Notes under the pieces: generated by a model
What the model saw: the letters and a program-made list of their open reading frames with translations, nothing else
The model's database searches: none
Told to the model about the DNA's origin: nothing
In this document: positions 987 to 23,545 of the stretch, one piece after another
How the letters are laid out: each line of letters opens with the position of its first letter
How positions within the stretch are numbered: the stretch's first letter is position 1
Origin: Methylovulum miyakonense HT12
GTDB lineage: Bacteria > Pseudomonadota > Gammaproteobacteria > Methylococcales > Methylomonadaceae
Length of the DNA stretch: 64,000 nt
Reading direction: 5' to 3'
Assembly: GCF_000384075.1 (NCBI RefSeq)
Contig: NZ_KB913025.1
Coordinates: 4,151,901-4,215,900, forward strand
Position numbers and translations under genes: made by a program

Positions 987-1718
987 TTAATAATTCAACA
1001 GCAACTCAGCCATCCCGTCCAACTTAATCTTAATTTGTTTCCATCCGGGCATTTGTAAACTTAATAGTCTGTAGAATTCGGGACTGTGATTGTGTTCCTT
1101 TAGATGGCAAAGCTCATGGATAATCACGTAATCGATACATTCTGTGGGAGCCTTTATCAAATGCGGATTCAACAGGATATGTCCCTGAGGCGAACAGCTT
1201 CCCCATTGTTTCTTCATTGTCAGCAGTTTAATCGTGAGAGATTCGCCGTTCAGCCACAACACGCTAGGCACCAAAGCGTTTAGGCGGCGATGAAAAACTT
1301 GACGGGCGTGAGAGGCATACCAGTCTTTTAACAGTTGCCTCACTTTTTCACTGGAACGGTCGGCAGTGGCAACGTGTAATTGCCCTCTCAACAATTTCAC
1401 CGTAGGCGGATGATTGTTGGCCAACGCCACTATTTTTAAGGGATACCGCTTCCCCAAATAAAAATGACTTTCGCCGCTAATATATTGTCTGGGCAATACT
1501 TCCGATCGCGCTTCACGAATACGGAATAAGTTCAGGGATAACCAACGCGCACGCTTCAATACCGCTTGCTTAATCTGCTGTAAGTCAGCATCTTCCGGTG
1601 CATCCACTTGTACCCTCCCATCAGGATGGATATGGATGACAATCTTAGAAGTTTTACGGGTCAGAAAAGTGACTTGATAATGGATTTCCTCGCTACCGTA
1701 GCGAATGGTCTGTTGCAT
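987..1718 (-). CDS. YgjP-like zinc metallopeptidase (DUF45/M48-type)
   Basis: A 243-residue protein with the zinc-peptidase signature HELCHLKEHNHSPEF near residue 205, including the downstream glutamate region typical of the YgjP/DUF45 family. The preceding GSCSPQGHILLNPHLIKAP segment is also characteristic. Its start overlaps the hsdR stop at base 1718, so it is the last gene of the restriction operon. Family members are often encoded next to type I restriction genes, but their substrate is unknown and the role here is inferred from linkage only. Confidence 0.85.
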   Translation of the reverse strand: MQQTIRYGSEEIHYQVTFLTRKTSKIVIHIHPDGRVQVDAPEDADLQQIKQAVLKRARWLSLNLFRIREARSEVLPRQYISGESHFYLGKRYPLKIVALANNHPPTVKLLRGQLHVATADRSSEKVRQLLKDWYASHARQVFHRRLNALVPSVLWLNGESLTIKLLTMKKQWGSCSPQGHILLNPHLIKAPTECIDYVIIHELCHLKEHNHSPEFYRLLSLQMPGWKQIKIKLDGMAELLLNY

Positions 1719-4700: not shown

Positions 4701-4987
4701 CGCTCATTGGCGGACAATAAACCTTCGCCCAAACCGGGCGAAGCCAACTGCCGCACGATGTCGTCAATGGCATTATTAGAGAGCGGATACGCTTGGCCTT
4801 TCCAATTGAATCGGCGTTTGCGCAATTCAGCTATCAACACCGACCGCAACAACACCTCGGACGTTTGCCCGCCACGATAGGCCAGTGCTTGCGTTGGTGA
4901 CAGATACTCATAGCCCATCGCCATTAACACCTGCAAGGCAGGGATTTGCGAACTGAAGACTTCCTTGGTTTCAGGGATGATGCTCAT
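1718..4987 (-). CDS. hsdR: Type I restriction enzyme, R (motor/nuclease) subunit
   Basis: A 1089-residue HsdR. The N-terminal PD-(D/E)xK nuclease domain shows RRPDVVCFVNGIPLVCIEAK around residues 150-170. The helicase part carries Walker A (HTTGSGKSFTM, about residue 345), the DEGHRSHGG motif II, FTGTPLLKND (motif III) and IARVNR (motif VI). HsdR translocates DNA with ATP and cleaves it when HsdM/HsdS bind an unmodified site. The length is normal and no frameshift is seen. It is downstream of hsdM and hsdS, with fic and DUF559 genes in between. Confidence 0.95.
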   Translation of the reverse strand: MSIIPETKEVFSSQIPALQVLMAMGYEYLSPTQALAYRGGQTSEVLLRSVLIAELRKRRFNWKGQAYPLSNNAIDDIVRQLASPGLGEGLLSANERLYDHLTLGLTVTEFIDGKKAQPTIALIDWENPTNNRFQVTDEFDVLNAGGTGTRRPDVVCFVNGIPLVCIEAKRPDPHNPHKDMLKEGISQHLRNQGVAEIPHLFAYSQLLLSVNGLDGRYGTTRTPAKFWALWREELLKDEEFDAIKNTPLSDAQTIQLFGHRPDGMGRHFESQAAQGKLLPTGQDKLIVSLLKPDRLLEFIRFFILFDKKNGKIAARYQQYFGIKKLLGQVIRKDSRDARQGGVIWHTTGSGKSFTMVFMAKALILHEQLKLCRFFVVTDRIDLETQLSKVFANAGALASPRDIEKAKATSGKDLAQRISHGNERILFSIINKFATASKQPECHNSSSDIIVLIDEGHRSHGGETHERMRLALPNAAYVAFTGTPLLKNDKTTNKFGPIIHAYTMQRAVEDGTVTPLLYEERVPELGTNSKAIDLWFERITEGLTDKQRADLKKKFAQKGQIYQSDSRIELIAHDIADHFVKNVADGLKAQLATDSKLSAIRYKKYLDETGLVSSAIIMSPPDTREGHDEVDESYKPEVQQWWLEQVGNQSEEAYSKEVIRRFAEEDDPQILIVVDKLLTGFDEPRNAVLYIDKPLKQHNLIQAIARVNRLHESKKFGLLIDYRGILKELDTTLEAYQNLAERTQDGYDIDDLAGLYHPVSTEYKKLPGLHDKLWAIFKDVNNRADLEQFRQVLIPHYQTDDAGDGYDAKQRVREDFYEALTAFSLCLEVALGSGSFYEDRSFNEEDIRIYKRDVRFFSQLRQISRQDAGETIDYSDYAARIKKLIDKHVVGEGIREPEGVFIVNELGKQKPEQWSDEKIRNETDIIRTRLKKTIEQELQDDPYTQKVFSELLEQAIRETEAMFEHPFKQYVFYKDLEEKLARREVVDIPSPLAKNSHAKAYFGVLKLVIGEDAFVAMSPEEINHYVGEAFAIDEVVDKAVAENSVNPQNIEAEIRKSLLPRLFKLIGMDKAKEVIEHIVQITRVGLSKER

Positions 4988-5615: not shown

Positions 5616-6503
5616 CTAGCCCTTTCCTTTATGCCCTGTGGGTACGGAGGGAGAGGGAACTGAACCTTCTACGATCCGCAAGTAACGCTCTAGGGTGGCT
5701 TGCTCCAAGCTGGCTACTAATTCGATAAACAAGCTGTAATCGCCACGGGTATGCGCGGTATCCAAGGCATCGTAATAGGCCAAGCGATTTTCGACCGGAA
5801 TAATCACGGGCAGCAAGCCTTGGCGCATCAGTTCAAAGTTCATTAATAACCGCGAGGTACGACCGTTGCCATCCACAAACGGATGGATGTCGACGAAATC
5901 GACATGCAAACGGGCTGCGCATTCCACTGCGTGCATCAATAAAGCTCCCTCCCCAACGGGAGAGGGTTGGGGTGACGACTGCAAGGATGCGGGAGGTAGA
6001 GCAAAGCATGGAGCACTTGCCGAGGGAAAATTCAAACCAGTCACTTGCCGATACCAATCCACCAAACCCGCCATCGCTTCCGGCACTTGAATATAATTCG
6101 GTGGCAAATGCTCGGCACCGGCAATGACGACGTTTTCCTTGCGGTATTGCCCGGCATTGCGGTCATCGATATTTTTCAGCACCAAATGATGGATGGATTT
6201 GATTTGCCACTCGCTCAAGGTTTCCTGGTTTTTTACGATGGCCTCGACATAATCGATGGCTTCCTTATGGTTGATGACCTCGAAATGCTCGCGCAACGGC
6301 TTGCCGCCGATGGTGATGCCTTCCAGCACCACCTTGGTTTCCTTCAAGGTTAAGGTATTGCCCTCAATAGCATTGGAATGGTAAGTCCATTCCAACACTT
6401 GCTGTTCGTGTAGCGTGCGGACGGTGTGTTCGGGTAGCGGGCGCAAGCTGTCCAGACGAGATTTTAGGCGGTCGATTTCGGCGAAGCGGGCGGCAGTATT
6501 CAT
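5616..6503 (-). CDS. Fic-domain AMPylase-like protein
   Basis: A 295-residue Fic protein. The active-site loop HPFVDGNGRTSRLL is canonical (HPFxDGNGR) at about residues 208-221. An N-terminal SNAIEGNTLT segment at about residue 42 fits the (S/T)xxxE(G/N) autoinhibitory motif of class II Fic enzymes, which normally transfer AMP to protein hydroxyls. The start overlaps the hsdS stop by 4 bp. Unusually, residues about 162-190 (the region around SSPQPSPVGEGALL) and the last 15 residues (VPSPSVPTGHKGKG) are encoded by REP-like repeats, so a repeat has been inserted in frame between the substrate-binding part and the catalytic loop. Confidence 0.88.
   Translation of the reverse strand: MNTAARFAEIDRLKSRLDSLRPLPEHTVRTLHEQQVLEWTYHSNAIEGNTLTLKETKVVLEGITIGGKPLREHFEVINHKEAIDYVEAIVKNQETLSEWQIKSIHHLVLKNIDDRNAGQYRKENVVIAGAEHLPPNYIQVPEAMAGLVDWYRQVTGLNFPSASAPCFALPPASLQSSPQPSPVGEGALLMHAVECAARLHVDFVDIHPFVDGNGRTSRLLMNFELMRQGLLPVIIPVENRLAYYDALDTAHTRGDYSLFIELVASLEQATLERYLRIVEGSVPSPSVPTGHKGKG
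5943..6035. repeat. REP-like element inserted in frame in fic
   Basis: This stretch starts with a CTCCCTCCCC...GGGAGAGGG hairpin and continues with sequence shared with the gap at about 5064-5125 (GACGACTGC, GGAGGTAGAGCAAAGCATGG). It adds about 30 residues to Fic without breaking the frame. The same DNA in the opposite orientation in an intergenic gap shows it is a mobile or dispersed repeat rather than ancestral coding sequence. Confidence 0.75.
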
Positions 6504-7711
6504 GACTCATCGACCTTCACGCGGCGTTTGCCGGTGAGTAGTTGTTGCATCAGGGCTTTTTTCTCTTGTTTCAGGCAGGCGAGCTTTTGTTGTAGGGTTT
6601 GGATTTCGCGGTCGGCTGCGGTAAGCACTTGGGCAATTTTTTGTTGTTCTTCTAGTTTTGGAAGTTCAATATTAAGGTGTTTCAGATCGTTACCGTATAG
6701 GTGAATAATAGTAACCCCTTGAGCGAAAGAAGCAATTTGATGCTTTTTTATGTGGGTTAATAAATGGGCTATGAATATTGAACATACTAAATTACGGTTT
6801 GGACGCAAAATATTTATATCGCCACCAAGCAAAACGTCATCCTCTAGCAAAGCAACTGCATTAGCTAAATCAATGCCAGTTGTTGTCGTGGATGATGGTA
6901 TCAAAATATCTCCCGCAACAGATTTCGTTCCTTCTTCAGAATTAGTCCGGCTTACGATATTTTTGATCACTTCTCCATATTTCGTATAAAGCTGCCCATA
7001 AAGAATACATTTATATTTGCCGTTGCTAGAAATAAGATCTTTTGAAAGTCCATATCCTTTTTTAAAGTCACAAACTTGTTTGAGTCTATATCTCTTCCAT
7101 TCATCTTCGAATTCTGGAAAACGTATTTGACTTTTTAGCAAAATTTGCACCAAAGCCTTTTTCTGTTGCTGACAATTATCCAGCAATTTTTCTGTAGTCG
7201 AGATGGCTTGATCCCAAACGGACAGGATCTTTGCAATTTTCTTTTGTTCACTAACCGGCGGTAAATTTACAGGCAGCTTTACCAGTTTTTCTCTCGTTAG
7301 ATGGGAAATGCTTGTTCTAGTCGTATAGTCATCAAGTAATTTTTTTCCAGCTAATGACTCCATATAATATTGAAAATATTCTGGAAGAATATTCCCCTTA
7401 GTTCGCAATCTATGTAACGCCTTTTGGTAGTAGCAAGTTGATAATTGTTCGTTCCATATTGCACAACGTCCGACTTCCCCCCCCTCGCACATAATCACGT
7501 CGCCATGTTTTAAAGAAAACTTCTCTCTTTGCTTTTCAGTGAAGTGCATTTCGTTCATTTCATCCATGTAAAATTTTCCCCATTGAACGTTAAAGTTGGT
7601 CAAATAAGGAAATTGTGGATGCTGCATTTTTGCTTCTTGGTTCAGCATCTTGCCTAATTGAACATCAAATAATTCACCTACTTTCTGTCGCGTCCACCCT
7701 TTAGATACCAT
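6500..7711 (-). CDS. hsdS: Type I restriction enzyme, specificity subunit
   Basis: A 403-residue HsdS with two target-recognition domains, each followed by a helical spacer. Repeat 1 runs from GWTRQKVGELFDVQLGKM to SEQKKIAKILSVWDQAISTTEKLL (about residues 5-185); repeat 2 from WKRYRLKQVCDFKKGYGL to EEQQKIAQVLTAADREIQTLQQKL (about 207-390). It directs HsdM and HsdR to a bipartite DNA site. It overlaps the DUF1016 gene upstream (11 bp) and fic downstream (4 bp). The recognition domains are more AT-rich than the neighbouring genes, which is usual for exchangeable specificity modules. Confidence 0.93.
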   Translation of the reverse strand: MVSKGWTRQKVGELFDVQLGKMLNQEAKMQHPQFPYLTNFNVQWGKFYMDEMNEMHFTEKQREKFSLKHGDVIMCEGGEVGRCAIWNEQLSTCYYQKALHRLRTKGNILPEYFQYYMESLAGKKLLDDYTTRTSISHLTREKLVKLPVNLPPVSEQKKIAKILSVWDQAISTTEKLLDNCQQQKKALVQILLKSQIRFPEFEDEWKRYRLKQVCDFKKGYGLSKDLISSNGKYKCILYGQLYTKYGEVIKNIVSRTNSEEGTKSVAGDILIPSSTTTTGIDLANAVALLEDDVLLGGDINILRPNRNLVCSIFIAHLLTHIKKHQIASFAQGVTIIHLYGNDLKHLNIELPKLEEQQKIAQVLTAADREIQTLQQKLACLKQEKKALMQQLLTGKRRVKVDES

Positions 7712-8744
7712 GGCGTTCTCCCTTCACTGTCAATCGCTGCTGTACCGCTTGCCGTTCCCGTTCCAACTCTAATCTCAGCTCGTCCTCAGTCGGCAAATAA
7801 GGCAGATATTTAGCTGCAAACAATTGTTGGTTGTCCGCCAGTACCGAATATTTGGCGATGGTTTCGCTTTTTTGACTGCATAAGATCAGGCCGATGGTCG
7901 GGTTGTCGTCCTCGCCTTTTTTATGTCGGTCGTAAATCCGCACATAGCTATCCATTTGCCCAACATCCTGATGAGTCAGCTTGCCGAGTTTCAGGTCGAT
8001 CAGTAAAAAGCATTTGAGCTTGAAGTTGTAAAACACCAAATCAATGTAAAAATCTTGGTCATCGGTGCTGATGCGTTGTTGCCGGGCAACGAAGGCAAAG
8101 CCCTTGCCCAGCTCCAGCAGAAAGTGTTGCAAGTTATCAATCAAACCTTGTTCCAGCTCGCTTTCCAAGAAGCTTTGTGCTGGCAAATTCAGAAAATCCA
8201 GCACATAAGGATCACGCAGATACTCTTCTGGCCTGGTGCTTAGTTGCGTGGTGTTTGCCTGTGCTTCTTGCTCGACGGCGGTGCGATCCTGACTGGCTAA
8301 CAGGCGTTCGTAATACAGCACGCCAATCTGCCGCTCCAAAGCCCGTACACTCCAGTTTTGTTCCAACGTTTCTTGCTTATACCAATCGCGGGCACGCGGG
8401 TTTTCCAGCCGCAACAACACACGATAATGGCTCCAGCTCAATTCGAGACACAGTGTGTCTCGAATTGGAAAGCTTTGATAAAACCGACGCATGTTACGCA
8501 AATTGGAAACATCAAAACCTTTGCCGTAGTCGCGTGTCAGTTGTTCCGACAAGTGTTGCAATTGCTGTTTGCCGTAAGCAGCGCGTTGCTGGCCTTGCTG
8601 TTCATCTTCGACAATCACGCGACCGATATGCCAATAGGCTTGCACCATTTCGCTGTTGACGGTTTGATGCACCCGCTGACGGGCCTGCTCGATGATGTGC
8701 CGGATTTCCGACAACAGCGGGTTGTTTGCAGCATCAAGCGTCAT
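7701..8744 (-). CDS. DUF1016/YhcG-type PD-(D/E)xK nuclease family protein
   Basis: A 347-residue protein of the YhcG/DUF1016 family. The N-terminal helical domain contains VYWHIGR-type residues (VQAYWHIGRVIVEDEQQGQQ, about 30-50) and YGKGFDVSNLRNMRRFY. The C-terminal half has the nuclease-like core FYIDLVFYNFKLKCFLLIDLKLGKL (about 240-265), with the acidic residues and LK expected of a PD-(D/E)xK fold. Members often sit inside type I restriction operons; their role is not established. It overlaps hsdM and hsdS by about 11 bp each, indicating translational coupling. Confidence 0.88.
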   Translation of the reverse strand: MTLDAANNPLLSEIRHIIEQARQRVHQTVNSEMVQAYWHIGRVIVEDEQQGQQRAAYGKQQLQHLSEQLTRDYGKGFDVSNLRNMRRFYQSFPIRDTLCLELSWSHYRVLLRLENPRARDWYKQETLEQNWSVRALERQIGVLYYERLLASQDRTAVEQEAQANTTQLSTRPEEYLRDPYVLDFLNLPAQSFLESELEQGLIDNLQHFLLELGKGFAFVARQQRISTDDQDFYIDLVFYNFKLKCFLLIDLKLGKLTHQDVGQMDSYVRIYDRHKKGEDDNPTIGLILCSQKSETIAKYSVLADNQQLFAAKYLPYLPTEDELRLELERERQAVQQRLTVKGERHGI

Positions 8745-10257
8745 AACCCAGCTCTTTCAAGTAGTGGTCCATTTCGATTTCCAGTTCCGCCAATTGCGCC
8801 TTCAATTGCTCACGCTCCTTGCGTACCGCCAGCAAGTCAATTTCCGCCTCTTCCACGAAGGTATCGACATAGCGCGGAATATTCAGGTTGAAGTCGTTTT
8901 CCTGAATGTCGGCAAGGCTCGCTAAGTAGGCGTATTTATCAATGGATTGTCTGTTGCGGTAAGTGGTGACAATTTTTTGAATGTCTTCGGCGCGAAGAAA
9001 ATTCTGGTTTTTGCCGTCGCGGTAATCACGGCTGGCATCAATAAACAGCACTTTTTCGTCAGTTTTACGCTTTTTGAAAATCAAGATAGCGGCAGGAATG
9101 CCAGTGCCGTAAAATAGTTTTTCCGGCAGGCCGATAACCGTATCGAGCAAATTTTCTTCAATCAATTTTTTTCGAATTTGGCCTTCGGCGGCACCACGGA
9201 ACAACACGCCGTGCGGCACGACCACACCCATTCGCCCGGTGCCAGGTTTAAGGGTTTCGATCATGTGCAAAATAAAGGCGTAATCACCTTTGGTTTTGGG
9301 CGGAAAGCCACGCCGATAACGGCTGAAACGGTCATGCTGGGCTTCTTCGTAGCCCCATTTTTCCAGAGAAAACGGTGGATTGGCGGTGACGATGTCGAAA
9401 TGTTTTAAGCTTTCATCGGGATTGAGCAATTTAGGGTTGCGTAAGGTGTCGCCCCATTCGATACGGTGATTGTCTTCGCCGTGCAGGAACATGTTCATTT
9501 TGGCAAGTGCCCAAGTGGAGCCGATGGCTTCCTGCCCAAACAAGGCGTATTTTTTGGAGCCGTTGAAGTTTTCCCGAATTTTGCGCCCGCATTTCATCAG
9601 CAATGAGCCGGAGCCACAAGCCGGATCAGCTATTTCGTCACCTTCGCGGGGTTCCAAGATGTCAGCTATCAAATCGGATACTTCCGGTGGGGTATAAAAC
9701 TCGCCCGCTTTTTTGCCAGCACTGGCGGCAAAGTTTTTGATTAAAAACTCGTAAGCACCACCGATGATGTCCAACTGGCCGATTCGGGACGGACGCAAGT
9801 CTAAGGTGGACTTGTTAAAGTCTTCCAATAAATGGCGCAGGATGTTGTTTTTCTGTTTGTCGTCGCCCAGTTTGTTGGAATTGAAGCTAATGTCCTGGAA
9901 CACATCACGCAGTTTGCTGATGTTAGCTTCTTCGATGGCATGTAAGGCTTGGTCGATACGTTCGCCATTACCGGGTTCATGCCGATGCTCGAGCAAATGG
10001 TAAAAACCTGCCGCTTTGGGAAGGACGAAGCGCTCGTTTTTCAACAGTTCTTCAATCAGCTCCGGTTCGTCGCCATGTTCTTTTTGGTATTGGTCGTAGT
10101 GATCCTGCCATACATCGGATATGTATTTCAAAAACAGCATGGTCAGGACATAGTCTTTATAGATACTGGGGTCTACAGTGCCGCGAAAGCTGTCGCACGC
10201 GGCCCAGACGGCTTTGTTAATGTCATCCTGTTTGATCGGTTCCCTGTTTTCGTTCAT
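8734..10257 (-). CDS. hsdM: Type I restriction enzyme, adenine methyltransferase subunit
   Basis: A 507-residue HsdM (N6-adenine methyltransferase). The HsdM N-terminal helical domain (about 10-140) includes VDPSIYKDYVLTMLFLKYISD. The SAM-binding motif is GEFYTPPEVSDLIADIL...DPACGSGSLL (about 190-220), and the catalytic NPPF motif is in VTANPPFSLEKWG (about 300). I chose ATG at 10257 because AGAGAA precedes it; a GTG 30 bp upstream would add ten lysine-rich residues. It overlaps the DUF1016 gene by 11 bp and begins 19 bp after the preceding HsdS-like gene. Confidence 0.94.
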   Translation of the reverse strand: MNENREPIKQDDINKAVWAACDSFRGTVDPSIYKDYVLTMLFLKYISDVWQDHYDQYQKEHGDEPELIEELLKNERFVLPKAAGFYHLLEHRHEPGNGERIDQALHAIEEANISKLRDVFQDISFNSNKLGDDKQKNNILRHLLEDFNKSTLDLRPSRIGQLDIIGGAYEFLIKNFAASAGKKAGEFYTPPEVSDLIADILEPREGDEIADPACGSGSLLMKCGRKIRENFNGSKKYALFGQEAIGSTWALAKMNMFLHGEDNHRIEWGDTLRNPKLLNPDESLKHFDIVTANPPFSLEKWGYEEAQHDRFSRYRRGFPPKTKGDYAFILHMIETLKPGTGRMGVVVPHGVLFRGAAEGQIRKKLIEENLLDTVIGLPEKLFYGTGIPAAILIFKKRKTDEKVLFIDASRDYRDGKNQNFLRAEDIQKIVTTYRNRQSIDKYAYLASLADIQENDFNLNIPRYVDTFVEEAEIDLLAVRKEREQLKAQLAELEIEMDHYLKELGYDA

Positions 10258-10276
10258 AGCGTGTTCTCTGGTTTTT

Positions 10277-10852
10277 TTAATTTTCACGTAGTATTTGTTT
10301 GGCTATCCCGGTCATGGTGCGCTGCATATTGTCAGTTAAAGCCGCCATTACCCGGAGTTGTTGTTGCCATGCGTGGTTAACCGACAATATGGCCTGTTGT
10401 TTTTCAAGCGATGGAATCGCAACGGGCATATTGTCTAACACTTGCCGACCAATAGCTTGCACCATGCTGCCATGGGATGATTTTTGTAAATAGTGTTGGA
10501 TCGGTTCTTGATTAATCTGCCATGCCAAAAAACCTGGCAAAATGTTGACTCCGCGCTTAACAGTCAAATGAAAAAAATGTGGAGAAAGCACCGTATCGAA
10601 CGGCACTTCATCGAATAGCAACGCAAAATTGCGGTTGCCTCTGGCCACAAATAACAAGTCACCATTTTTCAACCAATCCGGTTGTTTCTTCCCTGGCAAA
10701 TCAGTCACGACTAAGCCAGTCCAATCAATGCCTTTCCCAACATCAACATCTTTCATCTGGATCACGTGGACATTTCCGTTTTGATCTTCTTCTATTTTTC
10801 CTCTAAAGGCATATCCGGCTCGGATTGTGGCAATTTGTTTTAGGAGCTTCAT
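10277..10852 (-). CDS. Single-domain HsdS-like protein (half specificity subunit)
   Basis: A 191-residue protein resembling one half of an HsdS: one target-recognition domain (IATIRAGYAFRGKI at the start, GDLLFVARGNRNFALL in the middle) followed by one helical segment (VAIPSLEKQQAILSVNHAWQQQLRVM). It is the first gene of the operon, upstream of hsdM, while a full-length hsdS lies further downstream. It could act as an alternative or modulatory specificity protein, dimerising through its single helix, or be a relic of a duplicated hsdS. Confidence 0.75.
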   Translation of the reverse strand: MKLLKQIATIRAGYAFRGKIEEDQNGNVHVIQMKDVDVGKGIDWTGLVVTDLPGKKQPDWLKNGDLLFVARGNRNFALLFDEVPFDTVLSPHFFHLTVKRGVNILPGFLAWQINQEPIQHYLQKSSHGSMVQAIGRQVLDNMPVAIPSLEKQQAILSVNHAWQQQLRVMAALTDNMQRTMTGIAKQILREN

Positions 10853-10894
10853 GGTTAGTAGTGAATAGATATATTTTGTCAGCCATCATACCTG

Positions 10895-10929
10895 CTTAAA
10901 TTGCATCATGCAATTTGATGCAATTTAAG
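10895..10929. promoter_or_regulatory. 35 bp palindrome between two divergent defence operons
   Basis: Perfect 14 bp inverted repeats, CTTAAATTGCATCA at 10895-10908 and TGATGCAATTTAAG at 10916-10929, flank a 7 bp spacer that itself contains TGCAATT. A further TTGATGCAATTTAT lies at 10978-10991. A TTGACA box follows at 10932. The position between the leftward restriction operon and the rightward conjugation operon suggests an operator or divergent promoter; no regulator gene is encoded beside it. Confidence 0.6.
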
Positions 10930-11117
10930 TATTGACAATATAAACAGTCGTGATAACATCATTTGCGTCAATTACTTTGATGCAATTTATTTTATTTTTA
11001 ACATTGCCTTGAAATATTATATGGCAACCCTATATTGCCATTAGTAACTATATATTGTGTTATTATTTTTAAAAATCATAATATATAGTGTTTATTAAAT
11101 ATCAGTGGAGACTCGAA

Positions 11118-12293
11118 TTGAGTACAAAAATTACTTTTTTTCCGGTTGGCAACGGCGATATGACGTTGATTGAGCTTGATGATGCCAGCCAAACCAAGAT
11201 TTTGATCGACATGAACATCCGTGAAAGCGCGGACGACGAAGCCAATGCAGATTATTTCGACGTCTCCAGCGAACTGAGAAATCGCCTTAATAACGATTCC
11301 AATGGACGCCCCTACGTTGATGTCTTTCTCCAAACCCATCCAGACCAAGACCACTTGAGAGGCTTAAGCAAACATTTCCATCTTGGCGCAATTGATTGCT
11401 ACAAAGAGCCTAAGGATGGAGAGCAAGCGAAAATTATCATTCAAGAAATTTGGTCATCCCCTATTGTTTGGCGGCGTGCAGACCGTCGAACCGGGCATAC
11501 ACTTTGCGAAGATGCCAAAGCGTTTAATACTGAAGCAAAGCGCCGCGTCAATTTGTACAAAGAAACCCAAAAAATCGGCGAAGCCGGTGATCGCATCCGA
11601 GTTATTGGTAAAGATGAAGACAACAAAACAGATGGCCTAGAAGCAATATTGACTGAGGTAGACAAAACATTTACCAAGATTAATGAACGTGAAACTCAAA
11701 TGGTCGAAGTGTTTGTGCTTGGCCCCTTGCAGTCCAAGGATATTGAAGAAGAAGATCGGTTATCCAAGAATCACTCAAGTGTCATCTTGCAATTTAAGAT
11801 TGCATCACGGCCTTACGGCGCTAAAACCAACCGGTTTTTGTGTGGAGGCGACGCGGAAGTCGCAATCTGGCGCAAACTATGGCAGAAACACCGATATGAC
11901 ACGCACTGTTTACGTTATGACATCTTGTTATCGCCACATCATTGTTCTTGGCATAGTTTGTCGGAAGACAGTTGGAGCCGTTCTAAAAACCCTAAAGTGG
12001 ACCAAGAAGCCAAATCGGCACTCTCACAAGCAGAACGTTACGCTACGGTTATCGCCAGCAGTAATGTCATCAAAGACGATGATAACGATCCGCCGTGCTG
12101 GGGGGCCAAGAAACAATATGAAGCCATCGCCAAGAATGTCGATGGTGAATTTGTCTGTACAGGAACTCAAGATCAAGAGGTCATTGAAATTACACTGACA
12201 TCTGGAGGCCCCCAAAAAAGTCCAAAACTAGCTAGCAACATTACCTTTGGTGCTGGACTTGCCTCAGGTGCAAAACCAAAGCGACATGGTTAA
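11118..12293 (+). CDS. MBL-fold metallohydrolase (first gene of E2-E1-JAB operon)
   Basis: A 391-residue metallo-beta-lactamase-fold protein. The metal motif HPDQDH lies at about residues 74-79 in LQTHPDQDHLRGL, with a further HHCSWHSL motif near residue 275 after ILLSPHH. Overall it resembles the stand-alone ComEC-type or phage-defence MBL hydrolases. I chose TTG at 11118 because GGAG lies 8 bases upstream; an in-frame GTG at 11088 lacks a good site. The stop overlaps the next gene by 8 bp. MBL proteins act as hydrolases on nucleic acids, nucleotides or esters; the substrate here is unknown. Confidence 0.85.
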   Translation: MSTKITFFPVGNGDMTLIELDDASQTKILIDMNIRESADDEANADYFDVSSELRNRLNNDSNGRPYVDVFLQTHPDQDHLRGLSKHFHLGAIDCYKEPKDGEQAKIIIQEIWSSPIVWRRADRRTGHTLCEDAKAFNTEAKRRVNLYKETQKIGEAGDRIRVIGKDEDNKTDGLEAILTEVDKTFTKINERETQMVEVFVLGPLQSKDIEEEDRLSKNHSSVILQFKIASRPYGAKTNRFLCGGDAEVAIWRKLWQKHRYDTHCLRYDILLSPHHCSWHSLSEDSWSRSKNPKVDQEAKSALSQAERYATVIASSNVIKDDDNDPPCWGAKKQYEAIAKNVDGEFVCTGTQDQEVIEITLTSGGPQKSPKLASNITFGAGLASGAKPKRHG

Positions 12294-14598
12294 TACTGTG
12301 GGATTGCTCTCAAAGGATCCGCCAATCGCTGTGAAAGAAGCAATTAGCCAAATCCTAGCCCATCCTTCCGTGAAAAATGCAGACATCAGTCCCAGTGAGG
12401 ACAAGCATGGAAACTGGGAAATCGAAATCAACTTGATTGTCCCGTTGCCACGAGATGCTGTTAATGAAGGAATCACTAAAACCGGTGTTAAGGCAATCGA
12501 ATGGGTGAAGATTTTATTTCCAGCAGCTTTCCCCAGCCTCTCCCCTCGGCTTTTCTTGCGTGCAGATTTCAATCGAGCCCACCCGCATATTAATCCGGGC
12601 AGACAAGGCGAATTGGTCTCGCCTTGCATTTATGAAGGTAGGCTTGACGACTTATTGCATGAACCGGACTGGATAAACGGCTTAATCAACCAGCTCGCCG
12701 ATTGGTTAAGTAAAGCTGCGGCTGGAGAGTTACTGGATTGCTCCGGACAAGGGTGGGAACCAATTCGAAGGGATAGCGTTGAAGGATCGATTGTTACCGA
12801 AATATCCATCATTCGTGAGCGGATTACCAAAGCGAAAATGCCATTATGCCAATATATTCGGTATGAATATTGGCAATCTGTTATAGGACATTCCGGTCGA
12901 ATTATTGATGAAAGTATGTTCTATCCGACCATCGGCGAAGCTATTCGACACTTCGAAATAGGCAACACTAAACGATCTCAATTTGGGACAAATTATTCCC
13001 TGGGGCTGGTGGTTTCAGGTGGAATCAAAAACACAATTTCTATTTATCAACCGGACGATGTCAATAGCCTTGAACAGTTGCTGGTTAGAGCCGAAAATTA
13101 TGGCTGTCGATCTGGGCTGGAAATTCGTCTAAAGGAAATTAGCGAAAAAATCTCCCTTCCTCTAATAGAGCAAAAATTGGATATTGCTGTCATATTTACC
13201 GTAAAACGACCCTGCAATCTAATCGGCGAAGACAGTGACATTGAAGTCATTCCTTATGGAATTACTTTTACTTCTGACAAAGACCACCGATTGCAATTAA
13301 CCCGAACAACGGTTTTTCCATTAGTACAAATTCGGAAAGTGAATCCAAAGCTATTAGCCGAAACCTCGGATCGTAATTTCAACAAAGCAGATCACCGCAA
13401 AGAAATTGCCATGATCGGCTGTGGCAGCTTGGGATCAAAAATTGCATTGCATCTCGCTCGCTCTGGACATGGTCCATTTAGGCTTTATGACAAAGATTGT
13501 TTTTCGCCACATAACAACGCAAGACATGCCGTAGCAAATTTTGCTGCGGCCGAATTCATGCTCCCCAAGGTTTGGTTAACTAAAGACCTACTAAAGCAAG
13601 TTGGTGCCAATGTTACTGAAGTGAGTAAATCCCTGGAAGATGTCATTTTCAGGCTACAAAATAAGCCAGACCTGTTTGCAAAATGTAATGGGCTAATTAT
13701 CGACGCGACGGCTTCCAGTTCTGTGCAAGATGCTCTTTGCGTGGTCAGCCCAAAGAATTTCGGTGCGCCACTCCTTCAAATTGCGCTGTATGGTCGCGGG
13801 CAGATTGGTTTTTTTGGCCTAGAAGGAAGAGACCGAAATCCAAGGGTCGACGATTTGGTTGCCCAGCTTTATCAACTAGGCTGGGAGTCCAGCACGATTG
13901 GGACTAAATTATATCAATCCACAAAATTTGACCGAATAAACACCGGTCAAGGGTGCACATCATTTTCGATGAAAATGTCTGACGCAAAAATCTCACTATT
14001 TTCAGCTGGCATTGCTGAGCGGACATCACAGTTACTCGATAACGGCATTCCGAAGGACGGAGAACTTTTGGTCGGATTGCTTACCGAAGATTGTTTAGGA
14101 GTCAATTGGATGCGTCAATCCACGACCAAAATCGAAGTCATCCACGTTGGAGATAAATCAAAATGGGAGCTAAGAATTCCTTTTGCCTTAAAAGATCGAA
14201 TGCGCATGGAGACTGAGCAGCACAAACCCTTGGAAACCGGAGGCGGCTTAATCGGGCACATCAATTGGGGTAGACGAACAATTTATGTAACGGGTCTTCT
14301 TCCACCTCCTATGGATAGTGAATTTCGAACTGACGAATTTGTTCTTGGTATTCAAGGTTTGAAAAAGCAAATTAGTGCTCTTGAAAAGGCCACTAGCCAT
14401 ACGCTCACTTATTTGGGGACTTGGCACAGTCACCCGAACGGAGGCGGCGCATCAGGGACAGACAAAAGAACATTGGTAGATCTGACAAGAGAGCGGGGTA
14501 ACGTCCCAAGCATCTGTTTAATTTATCGACCAGAAGGGCTGATATCAGTACCAGGCCCAATCACAAATCCATTGGAGAACTCCGAATGCCGTCATTAA
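12286..14598 (+). CDS. Fused E2-E1-JAB ubiquitin-like conjugation protein
   Basis: A 770-residue three-domain protein. (1) A prokaryotic E2-like domain, about residues 1-200, has a candidate catalytic cysteine at about 114 (SPCIYEGRLDD) followed by the usual W and helical residues. (2) A ThiF/E1-like adenylating domain begins at about 375 with IGCGSLGSKIA and the acidic LYDKDCFSPHNNARH; Cys of GQGCTSF (about 557) is a possible thioester cysteine. (3) A JAB/JAMM isopeptidase, about 640-770, has the glutamate in ETGGGLIG and the zinc motif HSHPNGGGASGTD (HxHPx6SxxD). All three activities appear intact. ATG at 12286 is preferred, coupling it to the MBL gene; a start at 12247 is also open. No separate ubiquitin-like gene is seen, so the modifier is unknown. 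Confidence 0.88.
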   Translation: MVNTVGLLSKDPPIAVKEAISQILAHPSVKNADISPSEDKHGNWEIEINLIVPLPRDAVNEGITKTGVKAIEWVKILFPAAFPSLSPRLFLRADFNRAHPHINPGRQGELVSPCIYEGRLDDLLHEPDWINGLINQLADWLSKAAAGELLDCSGQGWEPIRRDSVEGSIVTEISIIRERITKAKMPLCQYIRYEYWQSVIGHSGRIIDESMFYPTIGEAIRHFEIGNTKRSQFGTNYSLGLVVSGGIKNTISIYQPDDVNSLEQLLVRAENYGCRSGLEIRLKEISEKISLPLIEQKLDIAVIFTVKRPCNLIGEDSDIEVIPYGITFTSDKDHRLQLTRTTVFPLVQIRKVNPKLLAETSDRNFNKADHRKEIAMIGCGSLGSKIALHLARSGHGPFRLYDKDCFSPHNNARHAVANFAAAEFMLPKVWLTKDLLKQVGANVTEVSKSLEDVIFRLQNKPDLFAKCNGLIIDATASSSVQDALCVVSPKNFGAPLLQIALYGRGQIGFFGLEGRDRNPRVDDLVAQLYQLGWESSTIGTKLYQSTKFDRINTGQGCTSFSMKMSDAKISLFSAGIAERTSQLLDNGIPKDGELLVGLLTEDCLGVNWMRQSTTKIEVIHVGDKSKWELRIPFALKDRMRMETEQHKPLETGGGLIGHINWGRRTIYVTGLLPPPMDSEFRTDEFVLGIQGLKKQISALEKATSHTLTYLGTWHSHPNGGGASGTDKRTLVDLTRERGNVPSICLIYRPEGLISVPGPITNPLENSECRH

Positions 14599-15221
14599 AA
14601 ATGATCAACATGCCAAGCATCGTTGCCATGACATTGATAAATACTGGGCTATTGTATTTTTTTTCGCAAAGTATAGAAATTGATACTCAAGTGGTTGGGT
14701 CATTTATGACCAATTGGAAACTTTCCGGGTTAGCTGCGGCAGTATCGACTGTGGCTATCGGAGCATTGAGCCTGATTATTCCAAGGCAGGTTAAAGATGC
14801 ACTAGTGTATTTACGCTGGCCCTATGCGGCGCCTGGCCATCGTGCATTTTCAATCTATGCTCAACGTGATATCAGAGTAGATTATGAACGGCTGAAAGCA
14901 GACCTTCCTGAATTGCAGGATCAATTGACTTTAACGCCAGTAGTTGAAAATAAGGTTTGGTACAGATTATTCAAAGCTAATGAAAAAATCCAAACCGTTT
15001 CCCATGCTCATCGAATGTGGCTAATGTACCGAGATCTAACAACGCTGGCTTATATATTCTTAGGGGCATTTGTAATTGTGTACCTATATTTAAAACCAGA
15101 TATTAACTATGATCTTTATCTAGCAATCTTTATTCTGGAATTATTGCTTTTCTGGAGTGCTGCCTGGAATTCTGGAGTACAGCTTATTTGTAATGTTTTG
15201 GCATCAGCATCGACTGACTAG
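14586..15221 (+). CDS. Four-helix membrane protein of the conjugation operon
   Basis: A 211-residue protein with two N-terminal transmembrane segments (about residues 10-28 and 45-66), a central soluble domain of about 85 residues (from RQVKDALVYLRW to AHRMWLMYRDL), and two C-terminal segments (about 155-173 and 180-198). I do not recognise a named family; the layout recalls small 2+2-helix effector proteins of defence systems. The start ATG has GGAGA 6 bases upstream and overlaps the preceding gene by 13 bp, so the three genes form one translation unit. Role as effector is inferred. Confidence 0.75.
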   Translation: MPSLKMINMPSIVAMTLINTGLLYFFSQSIEIDTQVVGSFMTNWKLSGLAAAVSTVAIGALSLIIPRQVKDALVYLRWPYAAPGHRAFSIYAQRDIRVDYERLKADLPELQDQLTLTPVVENKVWYRLFKANEKIQTVSHAHRMWLMYRDLTTLAYIFLGAFVIVYLYLKPDINYDLYLAIFILELLLFWSAAWNSGVQLICNVLASASTD

Positions 15222-15232
15222 TGTTAATTATT

Positions 15233-15642
15233 GGCTATGTCACCGTTAATTATGGAATCATCCCGCTAAAGCCCTATCGAATCATTTAACCGCCATTTGA
15301 CTGGGATAAGTTGATGATTACCGAAGACTTTAATGAATTACTGTCAAACCTCTTTAGCCATCATCAGCGCAGCGTGATCAAGGCCGCACTTGACCGGCAA
15401 ACCGGCCTGCCCGAAGTCATAGAACTGGTTGAAACCCGCTTTGAGCTGAAACCTGCTTGTCCGTATTGTGCAGGTATTCTGCTGTCGAGGTACGGCTTCG
15501 CCAGCGGCCTGCAGCGCTACCGTTGCCAAAGCTGCCAGAAAACCTTCAATGCCCTGACATGCACGCCCTTGGCGCGGTTGCGCCATAAGCCAAAATGGCT
15601 GGGTTATTTGGCCGCTTTGGCGGAGTCAAAAGCCGTCCAACG
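15233..15642 (+). mobile_element. Left part of an IS1595-family element
   Basis: The left end GGCTATGTCACCGTTAATTA at 15233 is the same terminal sequence that bounds two 124 bp MITEs (36839-36962 and 55255-55378), and it lies 81 bp before an IS1595-type transposase start. The element is cut at about 15642, where the end of a decayed Tn7-like element begins. This copy identifies the parent family of the MITEs. Confidence 0.8.
15314..15642 (+). pseudogene. IS1595 transposase, N-terminal fragment
   Basis: About 110 residues remain. They include the zinc-ribbon CPYCAGILLSRYG...YRCQSCQKTFNALT and the characteristic TPLARLRHKPKWLGYLAALAE. The DDE catalytic domain is missing because the reading frame runs into the repeat CGAAGTAT at 15641, the end of another transposon. 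The product cannot be active. Confidence 0.85.
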
Positions 15643-16487
15643 AAGTATGTTTGTTATTTTTGTGTAAGTATTTTTGTTACTTTTTGTAACATCCAGAACG
15701 CTCCGTACGTAAACCCATAGAATCAAAAATCCAGAACTTTAAGCTAAAATGCAACAGACTGTTTTTACTATCATTATTTTTATTGCAACGAAAATTGCGA
15801 AGTATCGTTGTTACTTTTTGTTGGATTGGCGAATATATAGCCTTGGAATGATCAACTTCATCACGCTTGGCATCAACAGAATGCCTCCCCTTTGCAGCAT
15901 CCACTAGGCCAACCATTGGCAGCGCCGATAAGAGCGCCACATTACTTGGTGGATATCGTCAATCAGTTCACCCGACTTAGTGAGAGGCACCGGACTGCTT
16001 TAATTTTGGCGTACCATAATCTCGGATTGACAAGAAAGAACTCGGCGGTGGCGCCCTGAATCCAGAAATCAATTAAAACAGGTTTTTGGTCTTCGGATTC
16101 CAGCAAAGCTGGCCGTTCGCAAAAGCTTTTACCGAAGGCAAGGCTTACAACAAAAGCCGTTGTTGAATTGGCTATATGAAAATAGGGTCAATGGACGGCC
16201 CAGCTTGGGGCTAAACGCATCAAATCGATCACGACAGGCAGGACGTTCCGTCTCCAGTGGTTTAATGTAACTCATTTCGCAACCTCCCCTTTTCAAAAAT
16301 CAAGTTACGAAATTGACATTGCATACAGAATGTAACAAAAATACTTCGCGATATTCGAAAAGTAACAATTTTACTTCGCAAGCATACGAAGTAAAATTGT
16401 TACTTTATTGAAACAAACAACTAATAACCTATTGATTTATAATAGAGGAATTGGGGTACATGTAGTAACAAAAATACTTCGCTGTAC
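15643..16487 (-). mobile_element. Decayed Tn7-like element with TnsB-type end repeats
   Basis: The stretch is inserted between an IS1595 fragment and an IS66 tnpC fragment and is bounded on both sides by CGAAGTAT-type sequence. GCGAAGTAnnnTTGTTAC-like motifs recur in both orientations at 15641-15658, 15666-15680, 15797-15814, 16332-16349, 16362-16379, 16387-16403 and 16465-16482. They resemble the end motif GCGAAGTAAAGTTGTGCTAA of the intact Tn7-like element at 26369-31508. A broken tnsA lies at 15963-16275, adjacent to the repeat-rich right end as in that element. The rest of the transposition genes are gone; 15670-15960 shows only a residual open frame without similarity that I can name. 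Confidence 0.7.
15963..16275 (-). pseudogene. Frameshifted tnsA-like endonuclease remnant
   Basis: Reading left from ATG at 16275, with AGGGGAGG as a strong ribosome site, the frame gives MSYIKPLET...RFDAFSPKLGRPLTLFSYSQF. After a frame change it gives SFCERPALLE...PVLIDFWIQGATAEFFL before the stop at 15963. These parts align with the intact TnsA-like protein at 30615-31235 (RFESFSPKLNRR and FCERPCRL...VDFWV). The distance between the two conserved blocks is also preserved. The frame change and early stop mean it is inactive. Confidence 0.7.
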
Positions 16488-16706
16488 GGGCGCCAAGGCT
16501 TCGGCTTCATTCAGGAACAGGTCACGCTGAGCCGGATTCGCCCGCGCCTCGGACTTGGCCGCGAAGAATCGGCGCAGATAGGCATCCAGCCGCTCTTTCA
16601 GCAAATCACGCTCGACCGTCATCACCCGGAGTTGATTCGCAAGACGTTGCTGCTCGGCCAGCAAGGCTTGGTATTCGCCGGTGGAAAGGGTGATGGTCGT
16701 CGTCAT
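16488..16706 (-). pseudogene. IS66 TnpC transposase, N-terminal fragment
   Basis: About 73 residues remain: the coiled-coil-like N-terminus of TnpC (LAEQQRLANQLRVMTVERDLLKERLDAYLRRFFAAKSEA) ending at NEAEALAPV. From there the reading frame enters foreign sequence CGAAGTATTTTTGTTAC. The zinc-binding and DDE domains are absent. Confidence 0.85.
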
Positions 16707-16737
16707 GGGCCTATTCTACTGGCTTTATGACATCGCT

Positions 16738-17090
16738 TCAGCCCACTTTTGTATAATTTCTCTCCGGATGCGGCCGCATCGCCGCCAAATCAATACCCGC
16801 CAACAGCCAGTGCAACTGCTCCACGGTGAGTTCTACGACCGCAGCGTCCTTCGGCCAGCGAAAACGATCGGCTTCCCCAGCCGCTTGATCATCAGCCAGA
16901 AGCCGGTGCGGTCCCATAGCAGCAGCTTGATCCGATCCCGCCAGCGATTGCTGAAAACGAAGATCGCCGGTGCGAAAGGATCCAATCCCAGGTATTGCTC
17001 GACTAACAGTGCCAAGCCATTGATAGCCTTGCGGCCATCCACCGGTTCTCGATGCAAGTAGACCTTCAATCCAGATTCGAAGCGGAACAT
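16738..17090 (-). pseudogene. IS66 TnpB with a one-base frameshift
   Basis: The first part, LKVYLHREPVDGRKAINGLALLVEQYLGLDPFAPAIFVFSNR...WLMIKRLG, is normal TnpB. The family continuation RFRWPKDAAVVELTVEQLHW is present only in another frame, ending with a stop at 16738. One G appears to be missing from a G run at about 16880 (CTGGGGAAG instead of CTGGGGGAAG). This is either a mutation or a homopolymer sequencing error. Confidence 0.8.
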
Positions 17091-17473
17091 GGCAAGCCGG
17101 CCAAACAGTTTAATAAGGGCGGAAGATCGGTCGGCTCAACACCCTGCAAATCCAGTTTAACGCCATTCGGCAAAACCACACTGAGGGATGACCCCGTCGG
17201 CTCCGGTGCCGCCAGTGACAGAACCGGTGCAAAGGCCGGCCAAGTTGATGGAATGCCGGTTACCGGAGTGACCTTTTCACGATAACGCTCGATCCACTTA
17301 CGCAGCAAGTTGGCATTGATGCCATGTTCCAGCGCTATCCCAGCCACCGATCCCCCGGGCCGCAAACAGGCTTCGACCAACTCCCGTTTCGCTTCCGGGT
17401 CATAGCAGCACCTTCCATCCCGCTTGTGCCCCGCGATCAATGATCGCGACAATGTCGTCTTCTTCTCTGTCAT
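17066..17473 (-). CDS. tnpA: IS66 TnpA accessory protein
   Basis: A 135-residue IS66 OrfA with the helix-turn-helix YDPEAKRELVEACLRPGGSVAGIALEHGINANLLRKWIERYR (about residues 24-65) and the usual C-terminal LPNGVKLDLQGVEP strand region. It overlaps tnpB. Its element is truncated, so it is probably a remnant without function. Confidence 0.85.
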   Translation of the reverse strand: MTEKKTTLSRSLIAGHKRDGRCCYDPEAKRELVEACLRPGGSVAGIALEHGINANLLRKWIERYREKVTPVTGIPSTWPAFAPVLSLAAPEPTGSSLSVVLPNGVKLDLQGVEPTDLPPLLNCLAGLPCSASNLD

Positions 17474-20155: not shown

Positions 20156-23100
20156 ATGGTTATAATTCAGCACATCCGCGAACTGTTTCCGCGCCACAAG
20201 CTTGTCCTAGCCCTTTCGGCCGGGCTTGGGATCAGCCCCATAACGACGCTTGCCTCACCCACGGGCGCTATAGTCGTCAGCGGTAGCGCACAGATCGGTC
20301 AGACGGGGGCGGTGACCGACATCAACCAGCACACGGACAAGGCGGAGATTGACTGGCAGGGCTTTTCAATAAGCGGAGGGGAAACGGTCAACTTTCATCA
20401 GCCCGGTTCCTCCTCAATCACCCTCAACCGCGTATTGGGCAATGAACGTAGCGTGATCGACGGAGCGCTCAACGCCAATGGTCAGATCTTTCTCATCAAT
20501 TCCAGCGGCGTCCTGTTCACCAAAGGCAGCAGCGTCAATGCCGCCGGGTTGGTGGCAAGCACGCTGGTTATCCGTAGCACCGACTTCAAGGCTGGCCGCT
20601 ACATTTTTCAGGACACTGGTGGCAGCGGATCGGTGATTAACATGGGCACCCTCAGCGCGACCGACGGCGGCTACGTGGCGTTGATTGGCGAAGCGGCCCT
20701 GAACCAAGGCGTCATTATTGCCAGCCGTGGTACGGTGGCGCTGGGCGCGGGCGAGAAGATCACCCTCAATTTCAACGGTGACTCGCTGCTGAATGTAAGC
20801 TTAGACCAAGGCGCACTCAATGCGCTGGTGGAGAACAGAAAGGCTATCTACGCCGATGGCGGCAAGGTGCTCCTTACCGCCCGCGCCGCCGACGAACTGC
20901 TGGCCAGCCAAGTAAACAACAGCGGGCTGGTGGAGGCGCACACACTGGGCGACCTCAAGGGCGAGATCGTCGTCCATGCCTATGGCGGCAGTGCCCATAT
21001 CGACGGCACACTGGACGCTTCAGCGCCGGAGGACGGCGACGGCGGCTTCATCGAGACCAGCGGCGACCAGGTTAAGGTCGCCGACAGCGCGCGCATCACC
21101 ACCCAGGCGGCGGCCGGTCGGATCGGTCACTGGCTCATCGACCCGGACGGTTTCACCATCGCCGCGGCTGGTGGCGACATGACCGGCCAAGCGGTCAGCA
21201 ACGCGCTCTCTAGCAATAACCTGACCTTAACCTCAACCCAGGGCAGCGGCAATAGCGGCGACCTCAACGTCAATGATTTGGTGAATTGGTCTAGCAACAC
21301 TATTCTGGGCTTGATCGCCACCCGTAGCGTCAACATCAATGCGCCGATCACCGGTGCGAACGGCGGTCTCGCCCTGAGCGCCGGAGCGGATGTCAATTTC
21401 AACGCGCCGTCATCGGCGAACGTCGCTAGCTTGACCGCGACCGCCGGCGGCGACATCAATTTTAATGCACCGCACACCTGGACGGCGCCTGGCGCTTGGC
21501 GCTTCGCCGGCAATAACATCAACGTTAACGATGCCGTAAGTTGGGCCGACGGTCGGGTGACTTTCAATGCGGCCAAGCTCATCAACCTCAATGCGGTGAT
21601 GACGGTAAGCAACCATGCCGAACTGGTGGCGACTTATAACACGGCTAAAGATACCAGCAAAGACGCCAACGGCGTTCCGACACCGACTTACGGCGCACCC
21701 TTGGGGGGCTTCAACCCGCTATTTGACGATACCAAACAGGAATTCGTGGGTCGGCTCGATTTCGTCAACAACCAGGCCGAAAGCCCTTTGACCATCAACG
21801 GCAATCGGTACACCCTGATCACCAGCATCGGCGGGTCGGGGGCGCATGACTTAAGTGTGATCGATGCGAATACTGCTCCGGAATTTGGGAGCATCGGCTA
21901 TTACGCACTGGCCGCTGACCTGACAGCACCTTCAACAGCCTTTGCTAAATGGCCGATCCATTGGCTGGGTGGCTACGACTCAAACGCGGGGTGGATAACG
22001 GCTGGATTGGAAGGGTTGGGCCACGCCATCAGAAACCTGACCATCAACGACCAGAGCGGAGCCAATTATGGCACCGCCTTGATCGGAGAAGTTTTCCAGG
22101 GCAGTTTCGTCAGCAACCTCAACCTGGTCAATATCAATGTGACGGGGTCGTTCAGCTATGTCGGTACGTTGGTCGGGCGAAACCACGGTTTTGTCGGCAA
22201 TAGCTATGCGCGCGGTACGGTAAGCGCCAGCGCGATCACCGACAACTTCGGAAGCCTGCACGCGCTGGTTGATGTCGGCGGCTTCATCGGGTATAGCGAT
22301 GGGACTATTTACCGCTCCGGGGCGGATGTGGCGGTAACGACCAAGGATGTTTTGACCGTCGGCGGCTTCGTCGGCTTGAATTACTCGTCTGGCAATCTTA
22401 CCGACGAATCCGGCAATCCATTTCCCTTCGGCGTCATTCTCGACTCCTACGCCAGAGGCGCGCTGAACCTGACATTCACCAATTATAACGCCACAGTTGA
22501 TCCTAGCTCCGATATCGGCTTCGGCGGCTTCGTTGGCACCAACTACTCTCTGATCAGCGGCTCCTCCTCCAGCGGATCGGTTACTGTCGTGGCGCAAACC
22601 CCCGAAGGTTATCCCATCGCTCTCGGCAACATTGGCGGATTCGCCGGTGTAAATACTTCAGGGTTTTTCAATGCCAACGCCGTCATCAGCAACTCGACCT
22701 CGTCTTCATCCGTAACCGGCACGGTGATCGGCGGCCCGGATCAGGGAGGTTTCGGCCTTATCGGCGGTTTTGTAGGGAAGAATTACGCTGCCCAGATCAA
22801 TAATTCGTCCGCGTTCGGGCGGGTTAATGCGGATAACGCATATGATGTCGGTGGTTTCGCCGGCAATAACACAAACGGCGTTTTGACCGGAAATACCTTC
22901 AATTCGGCGACCACCGGCCAGAATTTCGGCATTGGTGACATTGGTAATTTAACCCCTTCAAACGAGGGTACTGCAAACACCACTGACCAGAACCCGTCTC
23001 CCAACCAAGGGCGGCAGCCGTCGTCACAGGCGCAGAACGCAAGCGATGCGCGCACCCAGGCGCAAGCCTTGAACAACCAGGCCACCGCACAGCGAATCGA

Positions 23101-23437: not shown

Positions 23438-23545
23438 TTCAACATGAGAATAGGGCAATCCTTGTGTTGCGCGGTGAAAGATGCCCCGAAAAGCCGCGTG
23501 TATTTAATTAAAAGACCATGAAGCAACTGTCAAGAGGGATTTGCA

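Follow-up and report, generated by a model that had tools for sequence, protein, structure and literature searches.

Which protein do ubiquitin-type enzymes attach when their operon holds no gene for a ubiquitin-like protein? The question is raised by three overlapping genes of Methylovulum miyakonense HT12 (genome of 4.69 Mb, one contig), which lie on the + strand of a stretch of 64,000 nucleotides (nt) of contig NZ_KB913025.1, referred to here as the window, and encode a metallo-beta-lactamase (MBL)-fold metallo-hydrolase, a single-chain E2-E1-JAB fusion and a four-helix membrane protein. Our results identify these genes as a genuine 6A-MBL operon, a system that as such is already known, in which different genes can occupy the third position. 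We consider it rather probable that the MBL protein itself serves as the ubiquitin-like modifier, conjugated through a C-terminal glycine on a disordered tail and matured by the JAB domain, and that 6A-MBL operons, much like type II CBASS (cyclic oligonucleotide-based anti-phage signalling system), are ubiquitin-controlled counterparts of simpler pairs of an MBL and a membrane protein of the PDC-M48 type.

Identity of the operon

The MBL gene (11118 to 12293, 391 amino acids (aa) from 11118) was called as an open reading frame (ORF) of 11088-12293; of its two candidate starts, GTG at 11088 and TTG at 11118, the TTG is the better fit to the relatives. Its product scores 409.3 bits against NCBIfam NF058524 (“anti-phage 6A-MBL system MBL-fold protein”; cut-off 220, release 20), and the fusion (12286 to 14598, 770 aa from the ATG at 12286, within an ORF of 12247-14598) scores 561.7 bits against NF058523 of the same release (“anti-phage 6A-MBL system cap2_3 protein”; cut-off 320). 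Pfam recognises Prok-E2_A (101.5 bits, cut-off 25), ThiF (38.6, cut-off 28.1) and Prok-JAB (34.7, cut-off 25) in the fusion, and PADLOC gives weaker matches to related families (the MBL to LmuA at 1.3e-15; the fusion to E1-E2 at 5.5e-19 and to JAB at 8.7e-17). The third gene (14586 to 15221, 211 aa) encodes the membrane protein, with 2+2 helices around a soluble helical middle, which is the proposed membrane effector and belongs to what we call third-slot family A. The gene overlaps had been predicted exactly, at 8 nt for MBL and fusion (12286-12293) and 13 nt for fusion and membrane protein (14586-14598), and the + strand from 10852 to 15311 holds these three genes only.

The pair of MBL and E2-E1-JAB was described as operon type 6a, usually of two genes (Iyer 2006, PMC1779556). 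The original prediction had pointed to this literature, and both genes indeed bear the name “anti-phage 6A-MBL” in NCBIfam. Its core, an E2-E1-JAB fusion with an MBL partner that probably serves in defence, thus stands, and, judged from these family assignments, an anti-phage role of the window operon is probable; its view of the membrane gene as unusual and of a missing modifier had to be revised, as set out below.

Relatives were obtained from a scan of contigs over 84,980 species, in which at least 589 stretches fitted the pattern and at least 371 were confirmed. The best 80 were kept and, with three plasmid loci and three further loci, gave 86, of which 85 carry a fusion ORF of at least 500 aa (L092 was dropped). 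These 85, seven further loci and the window provided 93 aligned fusions; neighbourhoods were counted in 90 loci, i.e., the 85 minus L060 and L065 (each more than 90% alike to others) plus the seven, with the window excluded. The host labels include Cyanobacteriota and Bacteroidota and extend to a metagenome-assembled genome labelled Methanosaeta (L073). By simple ORF picking the MBL gene stands immediately upstream of the fusion in 80 of 85 loci, and the partnership held up in a six-frame search of the neighbourhoods, which placed an MBL within 3 kb of the fusion in 89 of the 90 loci (the exception is L064).

The window fusion has its E1, E2 and JAB catalytic residues at columns that are conserved in all 93 fusions. 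The catalytic Cys of E2 (codon 12625 to 12627, +) is C127 counted from 12247 and residue 114 counted from the ATG at 12286, as had been predicted, and both this Cys and the E2 His are kept in 93/93. The same holds for the E1 Cys (13954 to 13956, +; C570 or C557), which we take by analogy to be catalytic, and for E663, H727, H729, S736 and D739 of JAB, whose HxH motif lies at 14425 to 14433 on the + strand (H727 and H729, or H714 and H716 from the later start). The GCGSLG and HSHPNGGGASGTD motifs noted earlier are present. Profile matches predict the E2 and JAB folds, and for a profile of five fusion rows the nearest solved relatives are the Cap2 structures 7tsx, 7tsq and 7to3; a single-sequence search with the window fusion had a KtrA chain as its sole match (E 0.0039).

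Beyond these loci, megablast (the only search made there) found no near DNA copy of the cassette in E. coli genomes, and phage records contained no relative of the fusion at 1e-5. Viral contigs yielded 13 fusion relatives, of which three were viewed: L181 and L184 carry a tailed MBL, and L182 is discussed below.

The C-terminal glycine and the modifier

The absence of a visible modifier gene had been put forward as a peculiarity of the locus. There is indeed no candidate ORF of at least 30 aa on the + strand from the restriction operon to the MBL gene, and no beta-grasp modifier gene was found among the three + strand genes between 10852 and 15311 (PADLOC, Pfam, NCBIfam and ORF list); the likely answer to this apparent gap is a glycine of the MBL protein. 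Its C-terminal tail (residues 371-391, ending ...KPKRHG; 12228 to 12290, +), the proposed conjugation handle, is predicted to be disordered in the window protein, with values of the predicted local distance difference test (pLDDT) of 38-53 over the last 21 residues of an AlphaFold model whose core is confident. The column of the last residue, G391, is Gly in all 87 aligned MBLs that stand beside E2-E1-JAB. It is exactly terminal in 52 of these and followed by 1-5 residues in 35, and the residue before it is A in 36, H in 25, Y in 19 and another in 7. G391 is invariant in the MBL alignments A7 and A11; in A11, which has 44 rows, it is one of 15 invariant positions, together with the metal-site residues H74, D78, H79, H274 and H275. 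In contrast, none of 19 tail-less relatives (MBL2; ten from fetched loci and nine selected by hand among 43 plasmid records) ends in Gly. Their C-termini are mostly acidic (that of L103b is not), and L103b and L180 are very distant. Tailed MBL1 and tail-less MBL2 separate on one branch (support 100/99) in a tree of 84 MBL1 and 19 MBL2 rows, from which L101, L080 and L061 were excluded and in which the bootstrap had not settled.

All four Gly codons are used in the 80 loci compared (GGC 32, GGA 22, GGT 17, GGG 9), and in 45 of them no out-of-frame ATG lies over the last two MBL codons; because of both, the glycine is, as far as codons can tell, kept at the protein level. An origin of the terminal Gly as a mere artefact of gene overlap is rejected for these 45 loci and left as a possible contributor for the other 35.

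This rule has a parallel in CBASS. Jenson 2023 (PMC10097602) showed that the C-terminal Gly of cGAS is bound by Cap2 as a thioester, and that the cyclase keeps a C-terminal Gly/Ala in no operons but those with full Cap2 and Cap3. The same kind of test, applied here, finds Gly at or near the MBL end in 87/87 (exactly terminal in 52) in an operon without a cyclase; a CD-NTase (cGAS/DncV-like nucleotidyltransferase) was not matched by any of the three operon proteins in PADLOC, Pfam or NCBIfam. On these grounds the modifier, i.e., the conjugated protein, is probably the MBL itself, and the 35 MBLs with 1-5 residues past the glycine would suit a JAB domain that matures precursors.

Alternatively, the MBL glycine could have another role and the modifier could be a distinct ubiquitin-like protein whose gene lies at some other place in the genome. 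Beta-grasp proteins are the usual substrates of E1-like enzymes, and the Bil and Bub systems encode one. We regard this as very improbable: no such gene was seen in the operon, to which the search was confined, the glycine is present in 87/87 MBLs beside fusions and terminal in 0/19 tail-less MBLs, and, according to PMC10097602, type II CBASS conjugates the cyclase itself.

The MBL enzyme and the exchangeable third gene

Besides being the probable conjugated partner, the MBL protein is a predicted enzyme. The best PDB fold match of its AlphaFold model (pLDDT 88) is the ComEC MBL domain 9ic4 (E 2.8e-13), followed by phosphorylcholine esterase, and the 24 matches at E <=0.001 include RNase Z-type enzymes and other hydrolases; these matches make phosphoester hydrolysis its likely chemistry. 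The ComEC MBL domain is the closest solved MBL by sequence too, and the MBL profile also picks ORFs of ~770 aa in many genomes, which we take for ComEC. In the 87 aligned MBLs, H274 and H275 are kept in all, H74 in 85, D76 in 83, and D78, H79 and D245 in 86 each, some of the misses being proteins cut by a contig end.

Contrary to the earlier view, the membrane gene is by no means unusual: 60 of the 90 related loci have a gene of a membrane family, and 19 have a patatin instead (either, 79). In 83 of the 90 a gene of seven recurring families lies within 3 kb on either strand, and some loci hold two: family A occurs in 18, B in 24, C in 7, a Csx27-like family in 7, the small family D in 5, patatin in 19 (including one fused to E2-E1-JAB, in L050) and a second MBL in 12. 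What fills the third slot is exchangeable. Membrane helices beyond family A were predicted by hydropathy only, and one Csx27-like protein (L093) matches Csx27 at 2.5e-12. Only a second MBL is present in four loci (L103, L113, L115 and L125). The MBL2 profile has strong matches in five of these 12 second MBLs (L132, L133, L117, L184 and L113, of which L132, L133 and L184 were themselves in the profile), and the seven that match weakly (E 2e-25 to 5e-7) may be other MBLs. No third gene was recognised in seven loci; four of these are cut off by the edge of a contig, and the other three (L054, L116 and L064) have none. Two arrangements were seen besides: in L050 (6469-10005) E2-E1-JAB and patatin are naturally fused into a single 1178-aa chain, with a tailed MBL upstream, and in L094 (9260-10624) a caspase-domain gene (PF00656) stands directly downstream of the 6A E2-E1-JAB gene.

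Patatin phospholipases and caspase-domain proteins are effector types of other defence systems, and CapV of CBASS is of the patatin type. This bears on a different division of labour, in which the killing or cleaving is done by the MBL as a ComEC-like nuclease. The membrane protein would then do no more than anchor or restrain this nuclease, and E2-E1-JAB would mark its targets. Such a role would agree with the ComEC MBL domains as closest solved relatives in sequence and fold, and with the occurrence of the MBL in 89/90 loci while the third gene varies. It is nevertheless unlikely, as the alternatives in the slot, patatins and the caspase-domain protein of L094 among them, suggest that the third slot does the killing, and a separate tail-less MBL2 is present in some loci.

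The third protein of the window is matched by no PADLOC or NCBIfam family at E 0.1 or better and by no Pfam family over its cut-off. Its AlphaFold model (pLDDT 85) is all-helical, with 2+2 long helices around a helical middle, and the alignment of family A (A5, 19 rows) has K70, P83, G84, D95, R97, W125, L146, R149, D150 and G197 invariant. A relation of the window protein to family B (hhalign 5%) or to the Csx27-like family (23%) is not claimed. Among family A hits in the phylum (398 genomes), three were non-self, one beside a fusion, one beside an MBL2 and one beside neither. On Acinetobacter plasmids the family A gene has a WYL gene as its neighbour and is oriented divergently to an MBL-fusion pair, which is followed by a DUF6338 gene.

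The same membrane families serve MBLs with and without E2-E1-JAB, since a neighbour was examined for 11 of the 19 MBL2 and all 11 partners are members of these families: four of family A, four of family B, two of family C and one of the Csx27-like family. Family C corresponds to PDC-M48A of PADLOC (L118, 1.2e-61) and MBL2 to PDC-M48B (L132, 7e-153). The window itself does not show the PDC-M48 pairing, its membrane protein having no PADLOC match and its MBL matching M48B at 6.3e-7. That PDC-M48 lacks E2-E1-JAB is our reading from the pairs seen (e.g., L178 and L198) rather than from the PADLOC rules. Swapping of partners is not claimed from the family A tree, in which the MBL2 partners are not one clade but many forks are weak.

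These pairs also bear on whether the membrane protein could be the conjugation target, with E2-E1-JAB joining the MBL to it as a reversible membrane-anchoring switch. The 13-nt overlap of the two genes, the invariant K70 and the conserved helical middle of family A would fit, as would the joining of the cyclase to the envelope-stress protein PspA by B. cereus Cap2, reported in PMC11153139. We think this distinctly improbable: several families, patatins among them, occupy the slot, which makes a common acceptor lysine unlikely, and tail-less MBLs without the glycine pair with the same membrane families.

Our preferred interpretation, an MBL that is conjugated through its glycine and works with an exchangeable effector, also has observations weighing against it. 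The contrast between MBLs with and without tail is a single split in the tree and so, on this evidence, one evolutionary event, and 35 of the 80 loci have an out-of-frame ATG across the last two MBL codons, which could help to fix the HG/YG form. The third-slot families were built from the same 90 loci, so that their counts express recurrence and are not an independent test. Three of the 11 MBL2 pairs (L013, L135 and L147) were found via the membrane-protein search, and L013 and L135 had themselves contributed to the family A profile by which they were scored. Family A itself is not confined to these settings: its hits in the class (369 genomes) include seven non-self ones, two beside a fusion, one beside an MBL2 and four (L012, L014, L015 and L016) beside neither system in the fetched stretch; the same holds for the homologues in L146 and L134. 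The model of the membrane protein has no PDB fold match at E <=0.001 (best E 0.11), and permeabilisation of the membrane by the third protein is for this reason a guess. Finally, L064 and L047 (the latter outside the 90 loci) carry a fusion without an MBL, and on viral contig L182 a fusion is present but no MBL was called.

The non-self matches to E2-E1-JAB that rank highest within the class (G015 and G036) lie in L047, L048 and L064 and stand without an MBL; L048 and L064 are apparently one contig. The fusion of L047 has an N-terminal extension resembling the MBL tail, perhaps a remnant after loss of the MBL.

Proposed mechanism

On balance we favour a 6A-MBL operon that acts like type II CBASS, with an MBL-fold phosphoesterase in place of the cyclase. 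Its core would be the MBL and the membrane effector, and E2-E1-JAB would prime the MBL through reversible conjugation. Every reaction step in what follows is inferred, as are the substrate on which the MBL would act, the attack on the membrane and the action of the window copy against phage. The JAB domain would trim or recycle the MBL C terminus at the conserved glycine, after which E1 would adenylate this glycine and hand the MBL to its own Cys and then to that of E2. The last residue of the MBL would become linked to lysines on proteins of the cell or the phage, and the MBL would thereby be primed or relocated. On infection it would act on a nucleic-acid or nucleotide-type substrate and so switch on the third protein, which in the window would be the four-helix membrane protein permeabilising the membrane. 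The JAB domain would reverse the conjugates.

Genomic setting

The cassette was said to adjoin a type I restriction operon, consistent with a defence island, and this setting is borne out by PADLOC and Pfam. A short HsdS-like protein is encoded at 10277 to 10852 on the - strand, divergent from the cassette, and the operon continues with HsdM (8734-10287), a YhcG nuclease (7701-8744), HsdS (6500-7711), Fic (5616-6503) and HsdR (1718-4987). A short HsdS and HsdM are neighbours of the cassette in three further loci, L051 (Methylomonas methanica), L131 (a Methylobacter plasmid, with Hachiman HamA nearby) and L053, and in L013 they stand beside a tail-less MBL and family A pair, with no E2-E1-JAB cassette. 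In all five loci the short HsdS-like gene (10072-10644, +, in L013) and HsdM are divergent to the MBL cassette; the comparison covered L051-L147, six other loci and the window, and only these five had a short HsdS. A shared insertion or recombination hub beside MBL cassettes with and without E2-E1-JAB is possible.

Directly downstream of the cassette, 15311-17473 holds a transposase-like zinc-ribbon fragment and IS66-type parts. Further along are a two-partner secretion (TPS) pair (20156-25357), consisting of a TPS-domain exoprotein with GLUG motifs and a ShlB-type transporter, and the DDE domain of a Tn3-family transposase (31625-33397). Promoter and terminator scans gave results at chance level.

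Two small genes (~290 and ~190 aa) lie upstream of other 6A cassettes, in L054 (5259-6718), L107 (500-2029), L109 (4198-5696), L119 (4081-5622) and L127 (4165-5659). They are possibly regulators of the CapK/CapS type as in PMC13373217; the pair of L054 has no PADLOC match.

Comparison with known systems

A literature search on 6A-MBL, MBL conjugation and the membrane partner gave only PMC1779556 and one line in PMC13373217 as relevant. Three points, namely the MBL as modifier through its glycine, the interchangeable nature of the third slot and the pairing of the same membrane families with tail-less MBLs, were not found in print, in a search that covered few subscription journals or bioRxiv. 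The paper behind the NCBIfam name 6A-MBL was not found either, so that there may be an earlier publication.

If our interpretation is correct, bacterial ubiquitin-type enzymes control a metallo-hydrolase in addition to cyclases (CBASS) and beta-grasp proteins (Bil, Bub), and the modifier is the enzyme itself. Several membrane-protein families, including that of the window, would then be tied to one defence logic, and the last glycine of the MBL offers a one-residue handle on how an operon type known since 2006 works.

The window shares with the known 6A-MBL system an E2-E1-JAB fusion immediately 3' of a dedicated MBL gene, with both proteins far over the curated cut-offs. It differs in that two genes were usual in Iyer 2006, whereas in the window and in 83 of the 90 loci a third gene is recognised no more than 3 kb away. 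The MBL domain of ComEC/Rec2 is the nearest solved MBL by sequence and fold, but the MBL of the window stands alone, carries a C-terminal tail and is not part of a DNA-uptake channel. Unlike Bil and Bub, in which a beta-grasp modifier gene is a feature, the window operon shows none. In PDC-M48, the PADLOC candidate made up of M48A and M48B, a third-slot membrane family and a tail-less MBL2 are matched, although its MBL lacks the glycine tail. Type II CBASS has in common with the window E1-E2 plus JAB domains, a central enzyme with a Gly at its C terminus (in the MBLs at or near it), a choice of effectors that includes a phospholipase (CapV, PMC10097602) and, in Cap2, the nearest solved relative by profile; it is distinct in that in the 6A-MBL operon an MBL replaces the cyclase, and E2, E1 and JAB are united in one chain.

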